Positions 1,652 through 11,594 of a DNA stretch of 64,000 nt are shown one piece after another (position 1 is the first letter of the stretch; each line of letters starts with the position of its first letter). The stretch is from Planctomycetota bacterium. GTDB taxonomy: Bacteria; Planctomycetota; GCA-002687715. The position numbers and the translations under genes are program-made. The stretch covers positions 64,467 through 128,466 of the forward strand of contig SIAO01000002.1 in assembly GCA_009691765.1 (NCBI GenBank), in the 5' to 3' direction. A model generated the notes under the pieces. The model had not been told where the DNA came from, searched no databases, and saw nothing but the letters and a program-made list of their open reading frames with translations.

Positions 1652-3058
1652 TCACGCTTGGTCCGGATGGATCATGTTGCGGGGGTCCAACACCTTCGCG
1701 AGTTGCTCCGCCGGCAACACAGCGCGAGCCAACGCCACTTCGCGCACCGTGCGGCGCGTTTTCCAAGCGTCTTTGGCGATGTCCGCGGCGGCTTCGTAAC
1801 CGATGAGCGGCGCGAGACTCGTGCACATCGCGAGCGAGCCTTCGATCAACCCTTCGCAACGCTCCACATCAACTTCAATACCGCGCACGCACTTTTCTTC
1901 GAACGCAGTGACGCCGCCGGCAAGCAGCTCGACACTATCCAACACGTTGATCGTCATGACCGGGATCATGACATTGAGTTCGAACACGCCACTCTGACCG
2001 CCCACAGTGACCGCAACATCGTTGCCCATCACCTGCGCGCACACCATGGTCATGGCTTCGGCAATCACAGGGTTCACTTTGCCCGGCATGATGGATGAAC
2101 CAGGCTGCGTCGCAGGCAGAGCCAACTCGCCAATGCCGCAGCGCGGGCCTGAAGACAGCCAGCGAACGTCGTTCGAGATCTTCATCAAAGACACCGCCAC
2201 CACCTTCAACGCGCCACTCATTTCGACCATGGCGTCGCGGGAGCCCTGAGCCTCGAAGTGGTTTTCCGCTTCGCTGAAGCGCAATCCTGTCTGCTTAGAA
2301 AGCCGCGCAATGGTGAGCCGCGCGAAATCTTTGTGAGTGTTGATGCCGGTGCCCACCGCGGTGCCGCCAAGCGCCAGCTCGCACAGACGCGGCATGGCGG
2401 CATCAATGCGCTGACGCGCGCGTGCGATCTGCGTTGCCCAACCAGAAAACACTTGGCCCATCGTCACAGGGGTCGCGTCTTGCAAATGTGTGCGCCCGAT
2501 CTTCATGACCGTCGCAAACTGCTCGGCCTTGGCGCGCAGTGTGTTTTCTAAACGCTCAAGCGCAGGCAAGAGCGCTTCTTGCAAGCGCATCGCGGCCGAC
2601 ACATGGCTGGCCGTGGGGATCACGTCGTTGCTCGACTGCCCCATGTTCACGTGGTCGTTCTGATGCACAGGGCGCTCTTTGGCCGGGGCCGTGCGCAATC
2701 CCGCCACTTCGTTAGCGCGCGTCGCAATGACCTCGTTGGCGTTCATGTTGGTGCTGGTGCCCGAACCAGTCTGATACACATCGAGGATGAACTGAGCATC
2801 GAGCGTGCCTTGCGCTACTTCATCGGCAGCCTGCGTAATCAAAGCGCAGCGACGCTCGTCCAATTTGCCCAGCTCCTTGTTCGTTTCCGCGGCGCAGCGC
2901 TTGATCAATCCCAGCGCGCGAATGAACGAGCGCGGAAAACGGCGTCCGGAAATGCCCTGGAAATTGAGATGCGCCCTTTGCGTCGATGCGGCCCAGTAGG
3001 CCTCCAACGGCACCGCCATCTCGCCCATGCTGTCTTTTTCGATTCTCGTCTGGCTCAT
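1652..3058 (-). CDS. fumC: Class II fumarate hydratase
   Basis: 468 residues, normal for the class II (iron-independent) fumarases that interconvert fumarate and L-malate in the TCA cycle. Diagnostic stretches are visible: TQRAHLNFQ near residue 28, SGTSTNMNANEV near 100, GRTHLQDATPVTMGQ near 190, and the superfamily signature GSSIMPGKVNPV near 320, which carries the catalytic serine loop. It starts with ATG at 3058 and overlaps the stop of the upstream acyltransferase gene by 4 bases, so it is part of a minus-strand operon that continues into yqgE. Other lyases of the same superfamily (aspartase, argininosuccinate lyase) are less likely because the THLQDATPVT and NMNANEV blocks are fumarase-like. 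Confidence 0.96.
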   Translation of the reverse strand: MSQTRIEKDSMGEMAVPLEAYWAASTQRAHLNFQGISGRRFPRSFIRALGLIKRCAAETNKELGKLDERRCALITQAADEVAQGTLDAQFILDVYQTGSGTSTNMNANEVIATRANEVAGLRTAPAKERPVHQNDHVNMGQSSNDVIPTASHVSAAMRLQEALLPALERLENTLRAKAEQFATVMKIGRTHLQDATPVTMGQVFSGWATQIARARQRIDAAMPRLCELALGGTAVGTGINTHKDFARLTIARLSKQTGLRFSEAENHFEAQGSRDAMVEMSGALKVVAVSLMKISNDVRWLSSGPRCGIGELALPATQPGSSIMPGKVNPVIAEAMTMVCAQVMGNDVAVTVGGQSGVFELNVMIPVMTINVLDSVELLAGGVTAFEEKCVRGIEVDVERCEGLIEGSLAMCTSLAPLIGYEAAADIAKDAWKTRRTVREVALARAVLPAEQLAKVLDPRNMIHPDQA

Positions 3059-3789
3059 GACATGACCTCTTCAGACTGCTGTGCACCAACCTTGCGGTGC
3101 ATGCCCATCTGTGCAGGTGGGATCCAATGTGCTTCCAACGCCGCCTGCACGCGAGCGAGGACACTTGCAGCGCTGTCCGTGATTTGCGGCACAAAGCCGG
3201 GGCAGAACTCCACCACGACTCTGCGCCGAAACAAGCGCTTGCGAGCATACGAAATTGCCGTCGGCACCACGCAAACCGGAATGCCCGCCATCAAGACTGC
3301 AAGCGCGCTCTCGACTTCAAGCGTGCCTTTCATGCCGCGCAAGGCGCCAGCATCGCGTGTGCCTTCTGGAAACACCACCAACACACCGCCGCTTGCCAGC
3401 ACTTCCCGACGCGTGTCTTCAGCTACAGCATTCACGCGGCGCATGGTCTCAAGAGCGGCAGCCCTATCTCCGCTGCGCTCCGCGAGGCGCCGCACTTCTT
3501 TGGGGCGCATCACTGGGAAGCCACCGAGGCGGCACAACAGCGGGCTCAACGGCCCGAGCAGGCGATAGCCGATGAACGAACCCATTTGGAAATGCGGCAG
3601 GCGGCGCATGCGGGTGCGGCTCAAGTGTCCGAGCAGCAAGATGTCGAAAGCGCTCGCGTGCTTCGCGCAAAGCAACACCGGGCCCGTGGTGAGATGGCAA
3701 ACGCCTCGCACTTCAAGCGCGAGACGCAGATGCCACAGCCAGCGCGGCAGTATTTCGCAGAGTCGCCAGAGCAGCGGCCAGATGCGCAT
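3055..3789 (-). CDS. 1-acyl-sn-glycerol-3-phosphate acyltransferase (PlsC-like)
   Basis: 244 residues. The acyltransferase HX4D motif appears as HASAFD around residue 64, followed by the FPEGTRD block near 140 and VCVVPTAISYARK near 175, the standard order for lysophosphatidate acyltransferases. A basic/hydrophobic N terminus (MRIWPLLWRLCEILPRWLWHLRLAL) suggests peripheral or single-pass membrane attachment. The expected role is transfer of an acyl chain to the sn-2 position in phosphatidate synthesis; acylation of another acceptor cannot be excluded. It is the first gene of the operon with fumC (4-base overlap). A TATCAC hexamer ends 6 bases before the ATG, a near match to the leaderless promoter pattern seen elsewhere in the window. 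Confidence 0.88.
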   Translation of the reverse strand: MRIWPLLWRLCEILPRWLWHLRLALEVRGVCHLTTGPVLLCAKHASAFDILLLGHLSRTRMRRLPHFQMGSFIGYRLLGPLSPLLCRLGGFPVMRPKEVRRLAERSGDRAAALETMRRVNAVAEDTRREVLASGGVLVVFPEGTRDAGALRGMKGTLEVESALAVLMAGIPVCVVPTAISYARKRLFRRRVVVEFCPGFVPQITDSAASVLARVQAALEAHWIPPAQMGMHRKVGAQQSEEVMS

Positions 3790-3831
3790 GCCAGCGTGAT
3801 AGCACAGCTTGCGCTATGGTGCGCGCTCATC

Positions 3832-4689
3832 ATGCCGCGCCTCTGCTTGCTCGCTGCTGCTTTGCTCTTCTCTACGGCCGGAGTGGCCGTGAAAGGCAAT
3901 GGCTTCAGCACAGCGCAAATCGGTTGTTTTCGCGCTGTAGTGGCTGTGTTGACGCTCCTGCTCTTGGTGCCGGAAACGAGACGGCGACCAGACCGCGGCG
4001 CAGTGCTGCTGGCATTGGTGTATGGCGGCTGCATGGCGACCTTCGTGATCGCGACACGCCTCACCTACGCGGCCAATGCCATCTTCTTGCAATCCACCGC
4101 GCCGCTGTGGTTGTTGTTGCTCGGCCCGTTGGTGCTGCACGAACCGATGCGGCGTCGCGACCCACTCTTGCTACTGATGATGGCCGGCGGATTGATCCTG
4201 CTCTTCACAGCAGAAGCCGAAAGTGCAGCACACGCTCCAAATCCTGGACTCGGCAACATCGTGGCCATCGCGTCGGGGCTGTTCTGGGCCATCACTCTGC
4301 TGGGACTGCGTCGGCGCGCACGAGATGGAGTGCCCACCGGCCCTGTAATCTTGATGGGCAATGTGGCGGCGATCCTCTACTTCGCGCCCTTCGCCTTCCC
4401 TGTGGAAGCCGAAAGCACTGGCTCTTGGATTGGCATCTTCTGGCTCGGTGCCGTTCAGATCGGTCTGGCCTACATGCTCTTGGTACGCGGCCTTGCCAAA
4501 GTGCCAGTGCTGCAGGCTGCAATGTTGATGCTGATCGAACCAGTCCTGAACCCCATGTGGGCTTGGCTCGTGCATGACGAGCGTCCGCATGAACAAGTGA
4601 TTCTCGGAGGCGCTATCATCCTCGCCACCACGCTCGCAGACGCAGCAATTTCGGCACACGCCGCGCGCGGTACAAAAAGGAACGCATGA
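3832..4689 (+). CDS. EamA/DMT superfamily transporter
   Basis: 285 residues with about ten hydrophobic helices and two internally similar halves, typical of EamA (DUF6) metabolite exporters. Characteristic stretches are the N-terminal LLAAALLFSTAGVAVKG, FRAVVAVLTLLLL, and the second-half motif IEPVLNPMWAWLVHDERP followed by an Ile/Leu-rich last helix. The substrate is unknown. The frame is open far upstream, but ATG 3832 is chosen because the preceding part overlaps the divergent acyltransferase gene and lacks membrane character. A TATGGT hexamer at 3815-3820 is a plausible -10. It overlaps the following doxX by 4 bases. Confidence 0.88.
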   Translation: MPRLCLLAAALLFSTAGVAVKGNGFSTAQIGCFRAVVAVLTLLLLVPETRRRPDRGAVLLALVYGGCMATFVIATRLTYAANAIFLQSTAPLWLLLLGPLVLHEPMRRRDPLLLLMMAGGLILLFTAEAESAAHAPNPGLGNIVAIASGLFWAITLLGLRRRARDGVPTGPVILMGNVAAILYFAPFAFPVEAESTGSWIGIFWLGAVQIGLAYMLLVRGLAKVPVLQAAMLMLIEPVLNPMWAWLVHDERPHEQVILGGAIILATTLADAAISAHAARGTKRNA

Positions 4690-5102
4690 GAGAAACCTCA
4701 AAATCTGGGCTGCAAGATGCAGGCTTGCTCATCATTCGCGCGATGGTGTCCGTGGTTCTCATCTACCACGGCTCGCAGAAGCTCTTCGGTTGGTTTGGCG
4801 GCGACGGATTCGAACCGTTCGCAAAGTTCGTCGAGACACTGAGCCTTCCTGAGTCGCGCATCATGGCCTATGCCGCAGCGGTGTCCGAGCTTTTCGGAGG
4901 CTTGCTCTTACTTCTGGGCCTTGCCGGGCGTTGGCCTGCACTGCCCATGGCTATCACTATGAGCGTAGCCGTTTGGAAGCTGCACATGAACAGCTTCAGC
5001 GGTGCTGGCGGAGCTGAGTACCCGCTCACGTTGGGTGTCGTGCTCATAGGACTCCTGTTCACCGGACCTGGTGGCATCACCCTCATGCGATTCTTCAGGT
5101 GA
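4686..5102 (+). CDS. DoxX family membrane protein
   Basis: 138 residues with four predicted membrane helices. The DoxX-family hallmarks are visible: LIIRAMVSVVLIYHGSQKLFGWFGG at the N terminus (split here only for reading), EPFAKFVETLSLP, and the middle helix with ELFGGLLLLLGLAGRWPAL. Members are small inner-membrane proteins, some tied to quinol or thiosulfate oxidation or oxidative-stress complexes, but most have no defined reaction. It sits between an EamA exporter and an exonuclease III gene, with 4-base overlaps at both ends, so the three genes form an operon without an obvious shared pathway. Confidence 0.9.
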   Translation: MRETSKSGLQDAGLLIIRAMVSVVLIYHGSQKLFGWFGGDGFEPFAKFVETLSLPESRIMAYAAAVSELFGGLLLLLGLAGRWPALPMAITMSVAVWKLHMNSFSGAGGAEYPLTLGVVLIGLLFTGPGGITLMRFFR

Positions 5103-5935
5103 GCGAGCCCGCCCCTGCACCACGCGCGAGAAAACGCACGCGCATCGCCATCTGGAATGTCAACGGCCTACGCTCTTGCAACACCAAAGGTTTTGCGAAG
5201 TGGCTGGCGCGCGTGCATCCCGACATTCTCGGTTTGCAAGAAGTGCGTGCGTTCCCAGAAGCACTTCCCATCGGTGAATATGCCGCGATGGGGTATCTGT
5301 GCGCCTTCAATCCTGCGGTGAAGCCCGGATATTCCGGCACGGCGGTGTTTGCACTGGAAGAACCGAAGAAGCTGACCAAGTTGGACATCCCGCGCTTCGA
5401 CCGCGAAGGCCGCGTGCAAGTTGCAGACTTCGGTGAGTTCATCTTCATCAATGCCTACTTCCCCAAGGGTTCAGGGACTGCGCGCGACAACAGCCGCATT
5501 CCATTCAAGCTGGCTTTCGACATTGCGGTGCGCGATCTGGCAAGGCGCTACTTGCGTGCGGGGCGCCATGTCATCGTGGCTGGCGACTTCAACACCGCGC
5601 ACACCGAACTCGATTTGAAGAATTGGAAATCCAACGCGAAGTCTTCCGGATTCATGCCTGAAGAGCGCGCCAGCGTAGACATGTGGTTGCACGCAGGCTT
5701 TCGCGATGTCTTTCGCGATGCGCACAAAGGTGAAGACGGGCATTACTCGTGGTGGAGCCAGCGCCAAGGCGCGCGAGCCCGCAATGTGGGCTGGCGCATC
5801 GACTACTTCCTTGTGTCCGTGTCTCTCGCACCACGCGTGAAGCGCGCGTGGATTGACAAGAAAGTGAAAGGCTCGGACCACTGCCCTGTGCTGATCGAGA
5901 TCGCTCCGGCACCAGTGTCGAAGCGTGCCCGATAA
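5099..5935 (+). CDS. xth: Exodeoxyribonuclease III / AP endonuclease
   Basis: 278 residues starting at GTG 5099, inside a GTGA overlap with doxX. The endonuclease/exonuclease/phosphatase fold is clear: IAIWNVNGLRS near residue 16 (metal and active-site Asn), ILGLQEVRA with catalytic Glu48, VAGDFNTAHTELDLKN near 160 (the Asp-Asn pair), VGWRIDYFLVS near 235 and GSDHCPVLIEI near 262 with the catalytic His. Predicted to cleave at abasic sites and to act as a 3'-5' exonuclease in base-excision repair, in the cytoplasm. The first 13 residues (SEPAPAPRARKRTR) are a basic extension upstream of the conserved fold. Confidence 0.94.
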   Translation: MSEPAPAPRARKRTRIAIWNVNGLRSCNTKGFAKWLARVHPDILGLQEVRAFPEALPIGEYAAMGYLCAFNPAVKPGYSGTAVFALEEPKKLTKLDIPRFDREGRVQVADFGEFIFINAYFPKGSGTARDNSRIPFKLAFDIAVRDLARRYLRAGRHVIVAGDFNTAHTELDLKNWKSNAKSSGFMPEERASVDMWLHAGFRDVFRDAHKGEDGHYSWWSQRQGARARNVGWRIDYFLVSVSLAPRVKRAWIDKKVKGSDHCPVLIEIAPAPVSKRAR

Positions 5936-5940
5936 TTGGA

Positions 5941-7674
5941 TCAAGAGCCTGGCAGCGTTTCCGAAACGCGTCCGCCTTTCAGCGCGTCGTAGGTGAAGCG
6001 ACCTCGTGGAGCGCTGCCGTCCGCGGTGCTCACCCACCATTCGAGAATGACGCGGCCATGGCCCGCCACTCCGCCCGGGACTTGCAGCCGCTCAGCACGA
6101 TGTTCCTGCCGTTCGAGTTGCTCGTCGTGCACTGGACCGCTGATGATGCCGCCAGCAAGCACCTTAAGTTCGCCTTCAAGCGTGGCGAGATCGGGGCGAA
6201 CCACCGCACGCTTGCGGGCCAACGCGGCGATGGTCGGAATGAGCTTCTTGTTGTGCACTTCAGCGCGCACTTTCCATAGGCCAGCACCTGCTTTGGTGAC
6301 ACTCAGCATCGGCACTTCCAAGTGCGGCATCTCCGCTGCGTGATACAGCGTGAACGCCATGTTGCGATGGCAGAGTTCTTCGAGCATGAAGGGCGGTGGG
6401 ACTCGTGAAGATGTTTTGGCAAAGCCGCCGACTTCGATGTCGCCATGTTTCGGATGCTTGATGGCCGTCCACGGGCGCAGGTTCTTGCCGAGCTCCATGC
6501 GCTCGTCCCATTCAAGTCGCGACTTCTGTGAGTTTTCTTGATCGCCCGCGGAGCCGCCGCCGTACTGCGCATCGGCCCAAAGTTCGTTGGTGAATCCGAA
6601 GATGCCCAGGTTTTCAAACGCCCACGTGATGCTTCCGCCATGCACTTGGTACAGGTCCTTCCAGATGATCATGTAGCGATAGTGCGGGAGCATTTTTTCA
6701 CCTGCTTTACCGAGCTCGTCATACACAGCGACATCTTGTGAGGGGTATTCGGGGATCGTCTCCGCGCCGGGGCCGCGCAAGATCATGCCGCCATTGTTGT
6801 GGTAGCTCTGCAACGCAGCGATGTTTGGATGCGCGCGCAGGAAATCGCCCACGCAGCGGGTCTCTGGCCAGCAGAAGGGATATGGCCCCGCTCCACCCTG
6901 CAACCAATCGGGTTGCCAATCTGAAGGCCAGTTGCGATTCATGTCGTAGCCGCCAGGGCCGTCTTCATTCACTGCGCCATCACCATCGTTATCAATGCCT
7001 TCTTGACCAAGCATGATGTGAGTGCCTTGCACGCCGGGTTTGACGCGTTTCATCAAGCGCACGTCATCAGGGTCAATAATGTGTGTGCCACCACTGGCCA
7101 CGCACATACGCATTTGAGTGATGGAACCATCGCCATCAAGGTCGTCGGGGCCGTCCTCATCGAGGAGTCCATCACGATCGTTGTCCGTCGCGCCTTTGCC
7201 CGAGCGCGAACTCGAAGCGGTGTTGGCATCGTGAAACCAGAATTCGCGACCATCAGGGTTCATGCTCGGCAACACATAGAACGCCGCTCGAGCGAGCAAC
7301 TCGCGCACGCGCGGCAAACGCTCGCGGTTTTCCAGCAAGTACCAAAGCGTATACAGGCATGCCTCCGTGCCTTGGATCTCGTTGCCATGGATGTTGGCGT
7401 CAATCCACATCGCGGGCTTGGTTTCCGCTGCTGAGCCAGCAGGGTCGTTGATGGTCGCCAGCCACATCTCGCGGCCTTCCACGCTCGTCCCAAGGCTGCT
7501 GAGCTTCATCCAGCCAGACGACCCCGCTTCCATGAGCTTCAACGCTTCGGTCATTGCGCCGTAGTCGTAAAAACGGTTCCACTCCAGTTTCAATTGAGGC
7601 ACATGCGTGGGCGGAATCTGTTGCGCCAAGGTGCACGTTGCGCAAAACAGCAATGCGAATGCGATTCTGCTCAT
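5941..7674 (-). CDS. Secreted M14 family zinc carboxypeptidase
   Basis: 577 residues with a signal peptide (MSRIAFALLFCATCTLAQ). M14 zinc-site residues can be placed: His96 and Glu99 in IDANIHGNEIQGTE, and His292 in LQSYHNNGG. The substrate-binding Asn-Arg is in YDMNRNW (245-249) and the candidate catalytic Glu is Glu364 in GFTNELW. Two Asp-rich calcium-loop-like insertions, DNDRDGLLDEDGPDDLDGDG (164-183) and IDNDGDGAVNEDGPGG (227-242), interrupt the fold; such insertions are common in secreted planctomycete proteins. The C-terminal part (from about 430) looks like a beta-sandwich. Predicted to remove C-terminal residues from peptides outside the cytoplasm. It follows the next upstream gene, a catalytically degenerate paralogue, with a 1-base gap. 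Confidence 0.9.
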   Translation of the reverse strand: MSRIAFALLFCATCTLAQQIPPTHVPQLKLEWNRFYDYGAMTEALKLMEAGSSGWMKLSSLGTSVEGREMWLATINDPAGSAAETKPAMWIDANIHGNEIQGTEACLYTLWYLLENRERLPRVRELLARAAFYVLPSMNPDGREFWFHDANTASSSRSGKGATDNDRDGLLDEDGPDDLDGDGSITQMRMCVASGGTHIIDPDDVRLMKRVKPGVQGTHIMLGQEGIDNDGDGAVNEDGPGGYDMNRNWPSDWQPDWLQGGAGPYPFCWPETRCVGDFLRAHPNIAALQSYHNNGGMILRGPGAETIPEYPSQDVAVYDELGKAGEKMLPHYRYMIIWKDLYQVHGGSITWAFENLGIFGFTNELWADAQYGGGSAGDQENSQKSRLEWDERMELGKNLRPWTAIKHPKHGDIEVGGFAKTSSRVPPPFMLEELCHRNMAFTLYHAAEMPHLEVPMLSVTKAGAGLWKVRAEVHNKKLIPTIAALARKRAVVRPDLATLEGELKVLAGGIISGPVHDEQLERQEHRAERLQVPGGVAGHGRVILEWWVSTADGSAPRGRFTYDALKGGRVSETLPGS

Positions 7675-7675
7675 G

Positions 7676-9295
7676 TCAACGCACCTCCACTTTCAAACTC
7701 GCCGCATCGGCCCCCGAGCGCGGGGATTCCGTGCTCACTTTCACGTCCAGATGTCCGTCGGTTTGCACCAACCAACGCAGGCGTTCATGGCCTCCGTCGC
7801 CCAAGCGCTCCAACTTGGTCAGCACCGCGCCATCGATCAGCCGAGCTTCGCCGCAAGCAAAGCGCACAAGAAGCGGCTGTGCCACACGAGTCACACGCGC
7901 TTGCGCCGTCGCCATGGGCAGACTGCCACGACTGAAAATGTCTACGGTGATCTCGTGCAATCCGGATCCAAGGGCCTTGCTATCGAGAGTCTCGATACGC
8001 ACCACCGAAAACGCTTGCACGATGGCTGCCACCGCTTTCACTTGGGCTTGCAGCAGTACCGCGAGACGCTCCTCGTCGGCGCTCACCTTCCAGAGCGGCA
8101 TGAAGCCGCCGAGTTCCGCGCCCTTCCATGTCGGGTGCGCACAGGCCTTCCACGGCATGAAGCCCACGCCTCCCGTCAAATCAGAATGCAAGAGCCACTT
8201 GGCATCCACGCTCTCGGGCGCTTTGCCACTCGGCAGCTTTGCCTCTGCGGGCAATTCCGTGCGGTAGACGACACGCGATGCGAAAGCTGGCACGCCGTAC
8301 TGCGCGTACGCCCACTGATGGAATCCGCCATCGGCACTGTCTTCGGTGCCGTCATTGGCGCCCAAGATTTTCGCCAAACTCGCGGTGAGCGGTTTCGCCC
8401 AAGCGACATCCTCGGGCAACAAGCCATTCGGCGCGCGTGGCGCAGCGGCATCGTTGGTTCGGGCTAACTGCGCGATGTTGTCGCGCCAACCCAAGACATA
8501 CACAGCCGCCACTGTGCGGCGCTGAAGCACATGCTCCAGCAACGCCCTACTGGCGGTTTCAGAAGGGCAACTCGAACCCGCACTGCGCTCGGCCTCTTTC
8601 CAGCCATGCGCGAAGTTGCGATCGAGATCGACGCCACCGGGGCCATCCTCATTGACGAGCCCATCACCATCGTTGTCGATGCCTTCGCTGACGATCTTCC
8701 AAACTCCGCGCTCGCCTTTGCTGACATCCGCTTTCACCAACAAGCGCGCATCTTCATCGCTGCTGCGCCACACTCCGTTGGCATCCGGCGCACGCAGCGT
8801 CGCAATGATGCCGTCGCCATCCAGATCATCGGGGCCGTCTTCATCCACAAGCCCGTCGTTGTCATCGTCCACTGGCTCCGGCGTTGCACGACACTCACGC
8901 ACGGGACCGCTCGCCGCGAACTCAAGCGCCTCGGGTGCTGGCGCCGCAATCACTTCAATCGTGTAACGAGCAAGGGTTTCCGCGAGTGCAGTGTCCGTTT
9001 GCGCCGCAGCAAAAAGAGCGGCGGGCAGACGCGCAGCCAACTGCACACCGACGCGGTGATCGGGATTCAATCCGGCCACCACCAACAGGCAAGGTCGCTG
9101 CGAAGGTGGAACCGCTCCGGGCAACGCAACCAGCACTCCATCCACACGAGAACGCAGCGGCAAGAGCGTTGCGTTTGCGGGCGGCGTCTTCAGCGCCTCC
9201 AGCACAGCCGACACACCGGGCAAGTCGCGGTCAACTTGGGCCAGCAAGCTCACGGGCAAGATCATCAAGGTCAGCAAGCAGGAATGTCCGAACAT
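7676..9295 (-). CDS. Secreted M14-like protein lacking zinc and catalytic residues (probable pseudo-peptidase)
   Basis: 539 residues from ATG 9295, preceded by GAGGAG at about 11 bases; signal peptide MFGHSCLLTLMILPVSLLAQ. It is laid out like the downstream M14 carboxypeptidase: the same two Asp-rich loops (DDDNDGLVDEDGPDDLDGDG and IDNDGDGLVNEDGPGG), the same VDLDRNF block after the second loop, and a similar C-terminal beta region. The zinc-binding segment HGNE is replaced by NPDH (AGLNPDHRVGVQ, about 74-85), the SYHNNG segment by LGWRDN, and the FTNEL catalytic segment is not found. The frame is intact, so this looks like a maintained non-enzymatic paralogue (binding partner, chaperone or inhibitor of the neighbour) rather than decay. 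The frame stays open upstream, but ATG 9295 directly precedes the signal peptide. Confidence 0.82.
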   Translation of the reverse strand: MFGHSCLLTLMILPVSLLAQVDRDLPGVSAVLEALKTPPANATLLPLRSRVDGVLVALPGAVPPSQRPCLLVVAGLNPDHRVGVQLAARLPAALFAAAQTDTALAETLARYTIEVIAAPAPEALEFAASGPVRECRATPEPVDDDNDGLVDEDGPDDLDGDGIIATLRAPDANGVWRSSDEDARLLVKADVSKGERGVWKIVSEGIDNDGDGLVNEDGPGGVDLDRNFAHGWKEAERSAGSSCPSETASRALLEHVLQRRTVAAVYVLGWRDNIAQLARTNDAAAPRAPNGLLPEDVAWAKPLTASLAKILGANDGTEDSADGGFHQWAYAQYGVPAFASRVVYRTELPAEAKLPSGKAPESVDAKWLLHSDLTGGVGFMPWKACAHPTWKGAELGGFMPLWKVSADEERLAVLLQAQVKAVAAIVQAFSVVRIETLDSKALGSGLHEITVDIFSRGSLPMATAQARVTRVAQPLLVRFACGEARLIDGAVLTKLERLGDGGHERLRWLVQTDGHLDVKVSTESPRSGADAASLKVEVR

Positions 9296-9401: not shown

Positions 9402-11594
9402 ATGGTGCGCACCATTATCGTGGCCGCGTTCTGTCTCCTCGGAGGCGGAGCCATCGGCTACTTCTTCGCCTTCCAGCAAATGGACGAGGTGCGCCAAGTC
9501 AGTGCGAACCTCCCGGGAGAAGCGCGCGCGAATGAATCGGCCTCCAACGCAGAGCAATCCGTCGCGCCACACTTCACCCCACGCGCGATGTATGCAGAAG
9601 AACACGCCGTCGCCGCTGCACAAAAGCCAGCCGCCAAGGGCGTCATCAAGGGGCGCGTCGTAGACAAACTCGGCCGCGGCGTCGCTGGGACGTTGTTCAA
9701 GGCGCGACGCGCCAATGCATCCGACCCGCGCGGGTTCAACCGTCCCGGCGTGGCGCCTGAGTCGGTGCTGGGCCCCGAGGAAATGATCGCTCTGCTGCGC
9801 GAACGCATTAGCAGAGATCCGGCACTGGAAGTCACCGCATTCAGCGACAGCGAAGGCAACTTCGCGCTCAGTGGTCTTGAGAACCACCCCTACAACATCG
9901 AGAGCTACCTCACCAATCACACACTGGTCGGTCTCGAAGGACTGAGCCCCTTCTCAGGGCGTTGGCCGGGCGATGTGTTGCAACTGCGCGCCTTGCCGCT
10001 CTGCAGCGTCGATGTGGAGATTCGCCTTCCGGATGGCAGCGCACCGGCCACTGCGGAGTTGAGCGTGCGACGTAACGACAGCAACGAAACATGGCAATGG
10101 ACGCCGCAAGATCGTCTTATTCCGCTGTCGCCAGGCTTGTGGACTCTGCAAGCCCGTGGCGGCGACATGTGCATGTTTCGCTCGAAGGAAGAACTTGTAG
10201 AGGTAACGGAAGGTGGAACGCCTGCCACAGCCATCCTGCAACTTGCGGAGCGCCCTCTGATTCGCGGGCGCTTGTTGTTCGACGGCGCACCGCCAGCGAA
10301 GAACTACACCGTCATCGCATGGGCCGAGAAGCACAACCCTGCAACGAGCCAGACTTGGGAAGCGCCCAACATCAGCGATCAAGCACGCACCTTGGCGACC
10401 ACCGGCTTTCAGTTCGAAGACCTCGAGCCAGGGATTTATAGACTGAGTGTCAGCGACGGACAGAACGAACATCCGCCTGTGCTGGCCACGGTCACTCTCG
10501 CGGACAAGATGGTGATGCAAGATCTGCCTGTGGTGGTCAACCTCGGTGCGGAATGGGTTGTGCGTGTGTTGGATCCGAGCGGCGCGCCCGTTGATGATGC
10601 CAATTTGGAATCCAGTTTTTGGATGGGTCAGAACAACGGATGGGCTCGTGACCTTGAAGGGGCGTGGCACGCCAGCGTGTTCCATAATGTCGTCGATGAC
10701 GACAACAAAACGGTGTTGCTACTCACCGTTCAATCATCACAATGGGGCCGTCTCGGCGTCACCTTGCCTCGAGGCGCAGGTACTGTCGAAGTGCGCATGC
10801 AGCCCACGGGCTTCCTCAAGGCGCAACTTTCCAGCGGGCAATCCGGCGGAAAACAAAAACTCTCCGCGTCCCTCCAACTCGTGGGACCAGAGCGAGAAAC
10901 CCTCGCGTGGTTTGACGATTCCTCGGCCGGCGAAGACGGCGCTGTGAGTTTCTCGCCATTGCAGCCCGGCTCGTACGTCCTGCGCTTGAACATGCGTAGT
11001 GATAGCTGGGGTGGGAGCCAAAGCGTCGCCGAACAGGCTTTGCAAATCCACTCCGGGGAAAACCAGACCAGCTTAGGGGCTCCTGCACTGCACACTGTAA
11101 AAGTGCGCATTGACGCTGGAGATCAACACTTGACAGGTCATATTCAGTTGCAGCAACACCCCGATGTGATGGACACTCTGAACTACCAGACGTATGAGTC
11201 GATGATCAATGGTGTTGCACAGTTCGCAAACGTGCCCGCGGGTCGCTACTTGCTCAACTTCTGGGTACGTGGGCGCAACGGATCGACGGCCATCAATGTG
11301 CCCACTGCAGAAGTGCAGATCAAACTAGAAAACTTCCGCGCCTTGCGTCTGAAGCTGCACGACAAGGAATCGCCACTGTCCGCTTTGGGCTTCAAGGAAG
11401 GCGACCTGCTCGTGGGTTGCGACGGACGCGAGTTTGCCAACAGCTCTGAGCTGGACACAGCCATGCGCTTTGTCGGCAGCAAGGAAGATGTGCCCATGCT
11501 GATTCTGCGTAATGGCCAAGTGCAAACGCTCAATCTTTCCGGCAAGCTGTTTGTCGAATCCAAAGGCTTCTCTTGGAGTCTTGCCACCCGCTGA
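9402..11594 (+). CDS. Membrane-anchored multidomain protein with C-terminal PDZ-like domain
   Basis: 730 residues. An N-terminal hydrophobic segment (IIVAAFCLLGGGAIGYFFAF) acts as an anchor or uncleaved signal. Residues ~80-560 contain several beta-sandwich repeats of the carboxypeptidase-regulatory/CNA-B type, recognisable from phrases such as IKGRVVDKLGRGVAG, FALSGLENHPYNIES, FQFEDLEPGIYRLSV and FANVPAGRYLLNF. The last ~85 residues resemble a PDZ domain (SALGFKEGDLLVGCDGREF, VPMLILRNGQ). Predicted to face the periplasm or cell surface and bind peptide termini; no catalytic domain is visible. It has an apparently leaderless promoter and is followed after 6 bases by the ATP-grasp-like gene. 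Confidence 0.8.
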   Translation: MVRTIIVAAFCLLGGGAIGYFFAFQQMDEVRQVSANLPGEARANESASNAEQSVAPHFTPRAMYAEEHAVAAAQKPAAKGVIKGRVVDKLGRGVAGTLFKARRANASDPRGFNRPGVAPESVLGPEEMIALLRERISRDPALEVTAFSDSEGNFALSGLENHPYNIESYLTNHTLVGLEGLSPFSGRWPGDVLQLRALPLCSVDVEIRLPDGSAPATAELSVRRNDSNETWQWTPQDRLIPLSPGLWTLQARGGDMCMFRSKEELVEVTEGGTPATAILQLAERPLIRGRLLFDGAPPAKNYTVIAWAEKHNPATSQTWEAPNISDQARTLATTGFQFEDLEPGIYRLSVSDGQNEHPPVLATVTLADKMVMQDLPVVVNLGAEWVVRVLDPSGAPVDDANLESSFWMGQNNGWARDLEGAWHASVFHNVVDDDNKTVLLLTVQSSQWGRLGVTLPRGAGTVEVRMQPTGFLKAQLSSGQSGGKQKLSASLQLVGPERETLAWFDDSSAGEDGAVSFSPLQPGSYVLRLNMRSDSWGGSQSVAEQALQIHSGENQTSLGAPALHTVKVRIDAGDQHLTGHIQLQQHPDVMDTLNYQTYESMINGVAQFANVPAGRYLLNFWVRGRNGSTAINVPTAEVQIKLENFRALRLKLHDKESPLSALGFKEGDLLVGCDGREFANSSELDTAMRFVGSKEDVPMLILRNGQVQTLNLSGKLFVESKGFSWSLATR

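Follow-up and report, generated by a model that had tools for sequence, protein, structure and literature searches.

The window, a stretch of 64,000 nt from a Planctomycetota contig, carries on its minus strand two adjacent genes for M14-type proteins, which we call U (upstream) and D (downstream; Table 1). The stop codon of U (7676-7678) and the ATG of D (7672-7674) leave a single nucleotide between the genes, and the Shine-Dalgarno-like GGAGG within the end of U suggests that their translation is coupled. Coordinates, reading frames and the 1-base spacing are as the initial annotation gave them, and its description of the upstream copy as having a full frame is borne out: U is a full-length paralogue of D, and the sole copy within the source genome. 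Downstream of the pair lies a convergent exonuclease-type gene; the gene on the upstream side is divergent and has carboxypeptidase-regulatory-like and PDZ matches. Because of these orientations the unit here consists of the two genes. Promoter and terminator scans gave signals no higher than in shuffles.

Table 1. Features of the U-D gene pair in the window.
Feature	Position	Strand	Description	Basis
U gene	7676..9295	-	Predicted secreted M14 pseudo-carboxypeptidase, 539 aa, first gene of pair	BLASTP, profiles
D gene	5941..7674	-	Predicted secreted M14 zinc carboxypeptidase, intact active site, 577 aa, second gene of pair	Pfam
GGAGG	7684..7688	-	Shine-Dalgarno-like, inside U 3' end, 9 nt before D ATG	Sequence read directly
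D zinc motif	7378..7389	-	HGNE, residues 96-99	H and E both kept in 150/150 D rows
D third zinc ligand	6787..6807	-	H292 (SYHNNGG)	Kept in 147/147 ungapped D rows
D catalytic Glu	6577..6594	-	E364 (FTNELW)	Kept in 144/144 ungapped D rows
U NPDH	9056..9067	-	Residues 77-80, at place of zinc motif HGNE	Alignments
U third-ligand region	8477..8497	-	Residues 267-273, G269 instead of third zinc His	Alignments
U catalytic-Glu region	8261..8302	-	Residues 332-345, R341 instead of catalytic Glu	Alignments
U loop 1	8810..8869	-	Calcium-type, residues 143-162	Carboxylates 97-100% conserved in U, 151 pairs
U loop 2 and DRNF block	8612..8686	-	Calcium-type, residues 204-228	Conservation; R226 aligns with R145 (CPA numbering)
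D loop 1	7126..7185	-	Calcium-type, residues 164-183	Conservation
D loop 2 and NRNW block	6928..7002	-	Calcium-type, residues 225-249	Conservation

The two proteins are 27% identical across 562 columns (BLASTP, E 2e-23), and a comparison of the U profile with the D profile gives probability 100 and E 8e-102 over 519 columns; chance similarity is thereby ruled out. Pfam Peptidase_M14 matches D at E 1.2e-45, while the window U falls below the cut-off (E 0.067). It is the only exception among 75 U rows, 74 of which match PF00246 at E<=0.01, so that automatic annotation is likely to name U a peptidase; NCBIfam matches among the same rows are few, each single, weak and unrelated. The U profile also finds solved M14 structures at E 1e-18. 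By homology and fold, U is thus an M14 protein by descent, but only D has the HxxE and His zinc ligands and the catalytic Glu of an active M14 enzyme.

D comprises a Sec-type signal peptide, an M14 catalytic domain carrying the two calcium-type loops, and a C-terminal beta-rich domain. Foldseek aligns its AlphaFold2 model (pLDDT 92.0, pTM 0.91) with CPA and CPT at E values of ~1e-20. For the U model (pLDDT 91.6, pTM 0.91) the closest solved fold is carboxypeptidase T of Thermoactinomyces (M14A, a funnelin), at Z 26.1 and rmsd 3.3 over 285 residues, and the same structure is among the best for D. The profile match of carboxypeptidase T to U comes in two stretches that leave out the Asp-rich double insert. 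Carboxypeptidase T is encoded by a single gene with a prodomain and, unlike D, has no known pseudo-partner. Signal-peptide-like hydrophobic N-terminal stretches are found in 140/142 U and 133/133 D, by a rule that picks the most hydrophobic start and so leans positive, and both proteins are probably secreted.

The initial annotation held that the upstream copy has NPDH in place of HGNE and lacks the third zinc ligand and the catalytic Glu, and the alignments agree. Specifically, the zinc ligands of D, H96, E99 and H292 (69, 72 and 196 in CPA-type numbering), align with N77, H80 and G269 of U, and the catalytic E364 (270) aligns with R341. Of the other cleft residues, N246 (144) and Y342 (248) correspond to D225 and D319, and R247 (145) is retained as R226. 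Three alignments, one made with MAFFT, one between profiles and one of a profile to the solved carboxypeptidase T, agree that U lacks the four catalytic residues; in the profile alignments to D and carboxypeptidase T the U consensus reads d, h and g at the three zinc ligands (His, Glu and His) and r at the catalytic Glu. Zinc ligands displaced to other places in U are ruled out by the same MAFFT and profile alignments; the reservation in the initial annotation, that other His or Glu residues might occupy the zinc site, did not materialize.

Across the family the difference is nearly complete. His-Glu-His-Glu is present in 144/144 D rows with all four sites aligned, while of the 141 complete U rows 125 retain none of these residues, 12 retain one and 4 retain two; these counts leave out the rows gapped at the four sites, 10 of U and 6 of D, and the 151 U rows stand against 150 D rows because one locus (L246) contributes two U fragments and one D. 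H69 is replaced by Asp in 62 U rows, by Glu in 48 and by Lys in several Bacteroidota, H196 by Gly in 108, and E270 by many different letters. Asp or Glu at the first zinc position and His at the second are the most frequent substitutes (DxxH in 31 and ExxH in 20 of 151 rows), and two of the three positions are metal-capable in 73/141 complete rows, as might be expected if U had retained some other metal site and catalysed another reaction. However, Gly, Ser or another letter occupies the third position in nearly all rows, all three are metal-capable in 1/141, and the only other invariant His, H387, belongs to an HPxxG turn common to U and D, which makes a second metal site very improbable.

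We collected 158 tandem pairs, of which 151 are distinct after dropping 7 same-contig copies. They fall mainly in Planctomycetota (121), the rest being from Bacteroidota (9), Acidobacteriota (4), Gemmatimonadota (3), Verrucomicrobiota (3), Calditrichota (2), Rhodothermota (2) and unranked lineages (7), and the pair also occurs in KSB1 and Aminicenantes. Phylum labels of named-genome loci are given as recorded; L139, labelled Vicinamibacteraceae, groups with planctomycetes in the tree. The named-genome scan used a loop pattern and covered the best 80 of 562 candidates, which says nothing on prevalence; among these 80 are loci from the cultured Siphonobacter aquaeclarae DSM 21668 (L138), from Gemmatimonadales and Phycisphaerales chromosomes, and from Calditrichota, KSB1, Acidobacteriota, Aminicenantes and Verrucomicrobia. 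With this many distinct pairs a recent local duplicate is ruled out. A search of a plasmid collection gave a single weak match, to an M14 of a haloarchaeon.

With the window U as query, relatives appear in 32 of the 99 genomes close to the source genome. A profile of 21 upstream copies matches at 1e-10 in 142/392 Planctomycetota genomes, D and unpaired relatives included, and one of 21 downstream copies matches at 1e-100 in 92/392. If D-type is defined as at least 600 bits, there are 82 places in 82 of the 392 genomes, and in 81 of these U or a piece of U lies immediately upstream; in the 82nd (L252, G109) D sits at a contig end and U at the end of another contig. A separate survey of 296 Bacteroidota genomes, not part of the 151-pair set, found D in 31 genomes (33 places), 29 of which have U adjacent, with one locus cut at the contig start (G532) and one genome with U on another contig (G589). 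Conversely, wherever a fetched locus has U and no D, U stops close to or at the end of its contig (L045, L054, L090, L109, L135, L144, L146/L239, L211, L232, L242); in G149, where no D was found, U likewise lies at the end of a contig.

The order is U then D in 158/158 pairs before de-duplication, and neither a fusion nor a reversed pair was seen among them, so the pair is indeed kept together in the related genomes, a point the initial annotation had marked for checking. The median gap from U to D is -1 nt, with a 4-nt overlap in 62/147 and a 1-nt overlap in 19/147 for rule-chosen start codons. The genes around the pair are not conserved: in 111 of the 115 flanking ORFs at 30 loci (4 large ORFs were left out) the commonest family accounts for 4/111. 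An operon with a larger pathway is ruled out, no family recurring among these 111 ORFs, and the conserved partner of U is therefore D.

U could also be an ordinary tandem duplicate that decays by drift and is kept by linkage, and two genomes do have U split into two ORFs beside an intact D (L246 in G120; L288 in G513, where two D genes follow the two-piece U). The initial annotation had regarded frameshifted copies in relatives as evidence against its reading, and such copies thus exist, but in 2 genomes set against the 151 distinct pairs, from several phyla, of the main set. The U matches listed in the 392-genome profile search contain no internal stop codons, the one TAG (G319) falling in the D gene. 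We completed six dN/dS comparisons; in the three with dS near 1 (Phycisphaerales MAGs) the ratio is 0.10-0.12 for U, as against 0.05-0.08 for D. These ratios place U under purifying selection, and selection and breadth together refute decay by drift as a general account of U, leaving it next to no probability.

The history of the pair was followed in an unrooted tree of 47 of the 151 pairs plus 13 unpaired relatives. The U rows fall to one side of a branch with support 96, the D rows to one side of another with support 99. The subclades of one half are mirrored in the other, with Verrucomicrobia beside some Phycisphaerae in both. Patristic distances in U and D are correlated (rho 0.62; 0/2000 permutations as high), the nearest neighbour is the same in the U and D trees for 24/47 rows, and U paths are 1.64 times longer. 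Such a pattern is consistent with a single old duplication and a single loss of catalysis, after which the two genes were inherited or transferred jointly. Rooting with an own-genome outgroup M14 was unsafe, as the outgroup rows are <40% filled; U then needs 3 changes, as against 1 unrooted. The 13 unpaired relatives also show that active close relatives with the same loops exist outside pairs: both loops are present in 8/13, and the loops are thus older than the U-D pair.

The Asp-rich loops, which the initial annotation had described as common to both proteins, are what U conserves best. Six acids in loop 1 (D143, D145, D147, E152, D153, D157) and six in loop 2 (E204, D207, D209, D211, E216, D217) are 99-100% conserved in U, and the same twelve are 99-100% conserved in D; in U, D296, G323 and G334 also reach 99-100%. 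The DxDxDG...E pattern suggests that the loops bind calcium, and the EF-hand family PF00036 matches one of 75 U rows (0.0027). Residues fixed in D and variable in U include R157, R300, Y332, Y342, N363, R424 and R437. What U has retained would so be a scaffold stiffened by calcium-type loops.

The initial annotation further took the DRNF substrate-site block to be kept, which holds in part: in the window U the Arg (R226) remains but the Asn is already Asp (D225), and across the family R145 is retained in 102 of the 146 U rows with a letter there. This retention, with lipobox-like ends on a few U (5/143; 2/147 in D, scarce in both), would suit a substrate- or cell-surface-binding protein that is merely co-transcribed with D and whose old cleft holds C-terminal carboxylates. 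We consider this quite improbable: U does not conserve N144, R127, Y248 (CPA numbering) or the other cleft residues, and position 69 may be Asp, Glu, Lys, Asn, Ala or Gly. The variability of the catalytic positions and cleft argues that U was not kept for a conserved ligand pocket like the original one.

The gene order, co-occurrence, overlap, purifying selection and mirrored trees support the earlier proposal of a conserved pseudo-enzyme in a functional pair, and that a functional pair is conserved, whatever its role, we regard as almost certain. Our preferred reading, with a probability of roughly 55%, is that U and D form a two-subunit secreted carboxypeptidase in which one subunit is catalytically dead. 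D would be the catalytic subunit, and U a full-length sister whose zinc and catalysis were lost in a single ancient event and which has been retained as a partner without catalytic function. U would be translated first and D started inside or just after the 3' end of U, a coupled start by which the two would be made in similar amounts before export. Most likely they would then assemble into a U-D complex, in which U may hold or shape D by acting as a clamp, by stabilizing it or by governing substrate access, a role modelled on the inactive alpha subunit of M16B peptidases. We infer from these data both a physical association of U with D and a need of U for D activity. The full length of U and the probable coupling of translation favour a stoichiometric subunit, and the coupled production of two full-length homologues, one of them dead, is the appearance expected of a paralogous heteromer. 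Against a complex, mirrored trees and co-occurrence could also be explained by simple linkage and joint transfer, the unpaired active relatives imply that M14 enzymes of this branch need not have a partner, two genomes have split U genes beside an intact D, and U evolves faster (~1.6 times D) with an unconserved cleft.

Alternatively, U may be a folding or export helper, a steric chaperone that is made first, binds nascent D and then leaves, being absent from the working enzyme. Its invariable upstream position, the signal-peptide-like stretches on both proteins and the one genome with U unlinked to D (G589) would suit such a role. However, U equals D in length (median matched regions 572 and 575 aa) and retains every loop acid, which seems more than a transient helper requires, and the unpaired active relatives do without U; a helper is therefore unlikely. 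An inhibitor that covers the D active site until needed, as immunity-like or zymogen-like control, would also suit the gene order and overlap, which place U before D. Both prodomains and protein inhibitors are known to control M14 enzymes, and inhibitor complexes are among the structure matches of the models. But for an inhibitor U would be large, being a full-length copy that has a C-terminal domain and calcium-type loops of its own, and no small conserved U-specific insert or tail is seen in the alignment of 21 upstream copies, so that we find this role rather improbable.

The two-subunit enzyme that we prefer has its closest parallel in the M16B pairs (mitochondrial processing peptidase alpha/beta and bacterial homologues), where, according to the accessible sections of a review on metallo-pseudopeptidases, an active subunit is joined by a homologous one without the zinc motif, the bacterial pairs are encoded by two-gene operons, and the inactive subunit helps form the active centre (PMC11266112). 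The likeness is one of arrangement: the M16 endopeptidases have another fold and family than the M14 funnelins, U and D both belong to M14 by profile and fold and not to the M16 fold with HxxEH, and the M16B complex is known whereas the U-D association is a prediction. Within M14, the eukaryotic pseudopeptidases AEBP1, CPXM1, CPXM2, CPD domain III and Ecm14 are described in the same sections as having, like U, an M14 fold with lost catalytic residues and a secreted or extracellular location (PMC11266112). As far as these sections describe them, they keep part of the zinc site (e.g., H69 and E72 in AEBP1), whereas U loses essentially all of it; they are not gene-paired with an active sister, whereas U adjoins its enzyme; and CPD domain III shares one chain with other domains, whereas U has its own gene. 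The M14 cases in those sections come from vertebrates, Drosophila and yeast only (PMC11266112).

Enzyme/pseudoenzyme pairs are thus a known kind, but in the M14 family of bacteria they do not seem to have been described: we found no such pair in the open literature, subscription journals and preprints being outside the scope of the search. To our knowledge, bacterial pseudoproteases have been little studied. A wider generalization would be that U and D represent a widespread bacterial two-component M14 carboxypeptidase, with an obligate dead subunit from one ancient duplication, moved as a unit between phyla, with the calcium loops at the subunit contact, and so the M14 counterpart of the M16B heterodimers; this we hold tentatively, at somewhat short of even odds. 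The recurrence of the pair in the same order across many phyla points to a two-part enzyme. It offers a clear-cut way to test why inactive copies of enzymes persist, and a possible two-part carboxypeptidase for study, for which Siphonobacter aquaeclarae DSM 21668 provides a cultured host.

M14 carboxypeptidases that keep an intact HxxE motif but stand without a partner occur at nine loci (L060, L065, L066, L067, L071, L073, L237, L238 and L241), and all eight of those tested (all except L067) carry both Asp-rich loops of the pair formed by the ligand-less upstream paralogue, U, and the active enzyme, D. These nine enzymes are apparently active without a partner, and provide a natural control for the pair. 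The window's own genome (G000), small at 2.6 Mb, encodes at least seven M14 domains beyond the pair. The divergent neighbour of U showed no sign of travelling with the pair.

Features outside the pair and at a locus with a split U
Feature	Location	Coordinates	Strand	Remarks
Gene divergent from U	window	9402-11594	+	730 aa; carboxypeptidase-regulatory-like and PDZ matches
Two D in tandem behind split U	L288 (G513:C74)	2716-7861		Bacteroidota genome
Further M14 domains	G000: C5, C4, C6, C7, C12, C21, C8	137064 (C8)		

At L288, U is broken into two ORFs followed by two intact D genes, perhaps reflecting a second duplication, of D, after U broke. Most U copies of Bacteroidota loci L264-L276 read KxxH (Lys at 69, His at 72), with a basic residue at the exact former zinc position.

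Seven U copies have not lost the catalytic site completely and retain one or two of its residues, usually E72 and in some also H69: L056, L227, L234, L235 and L240, which belong to a single planctomycete family (f24), as well as L046 and L050. These seven possibly represent an early branch, which could reveal the sequence in which the catalytic residues were lost.
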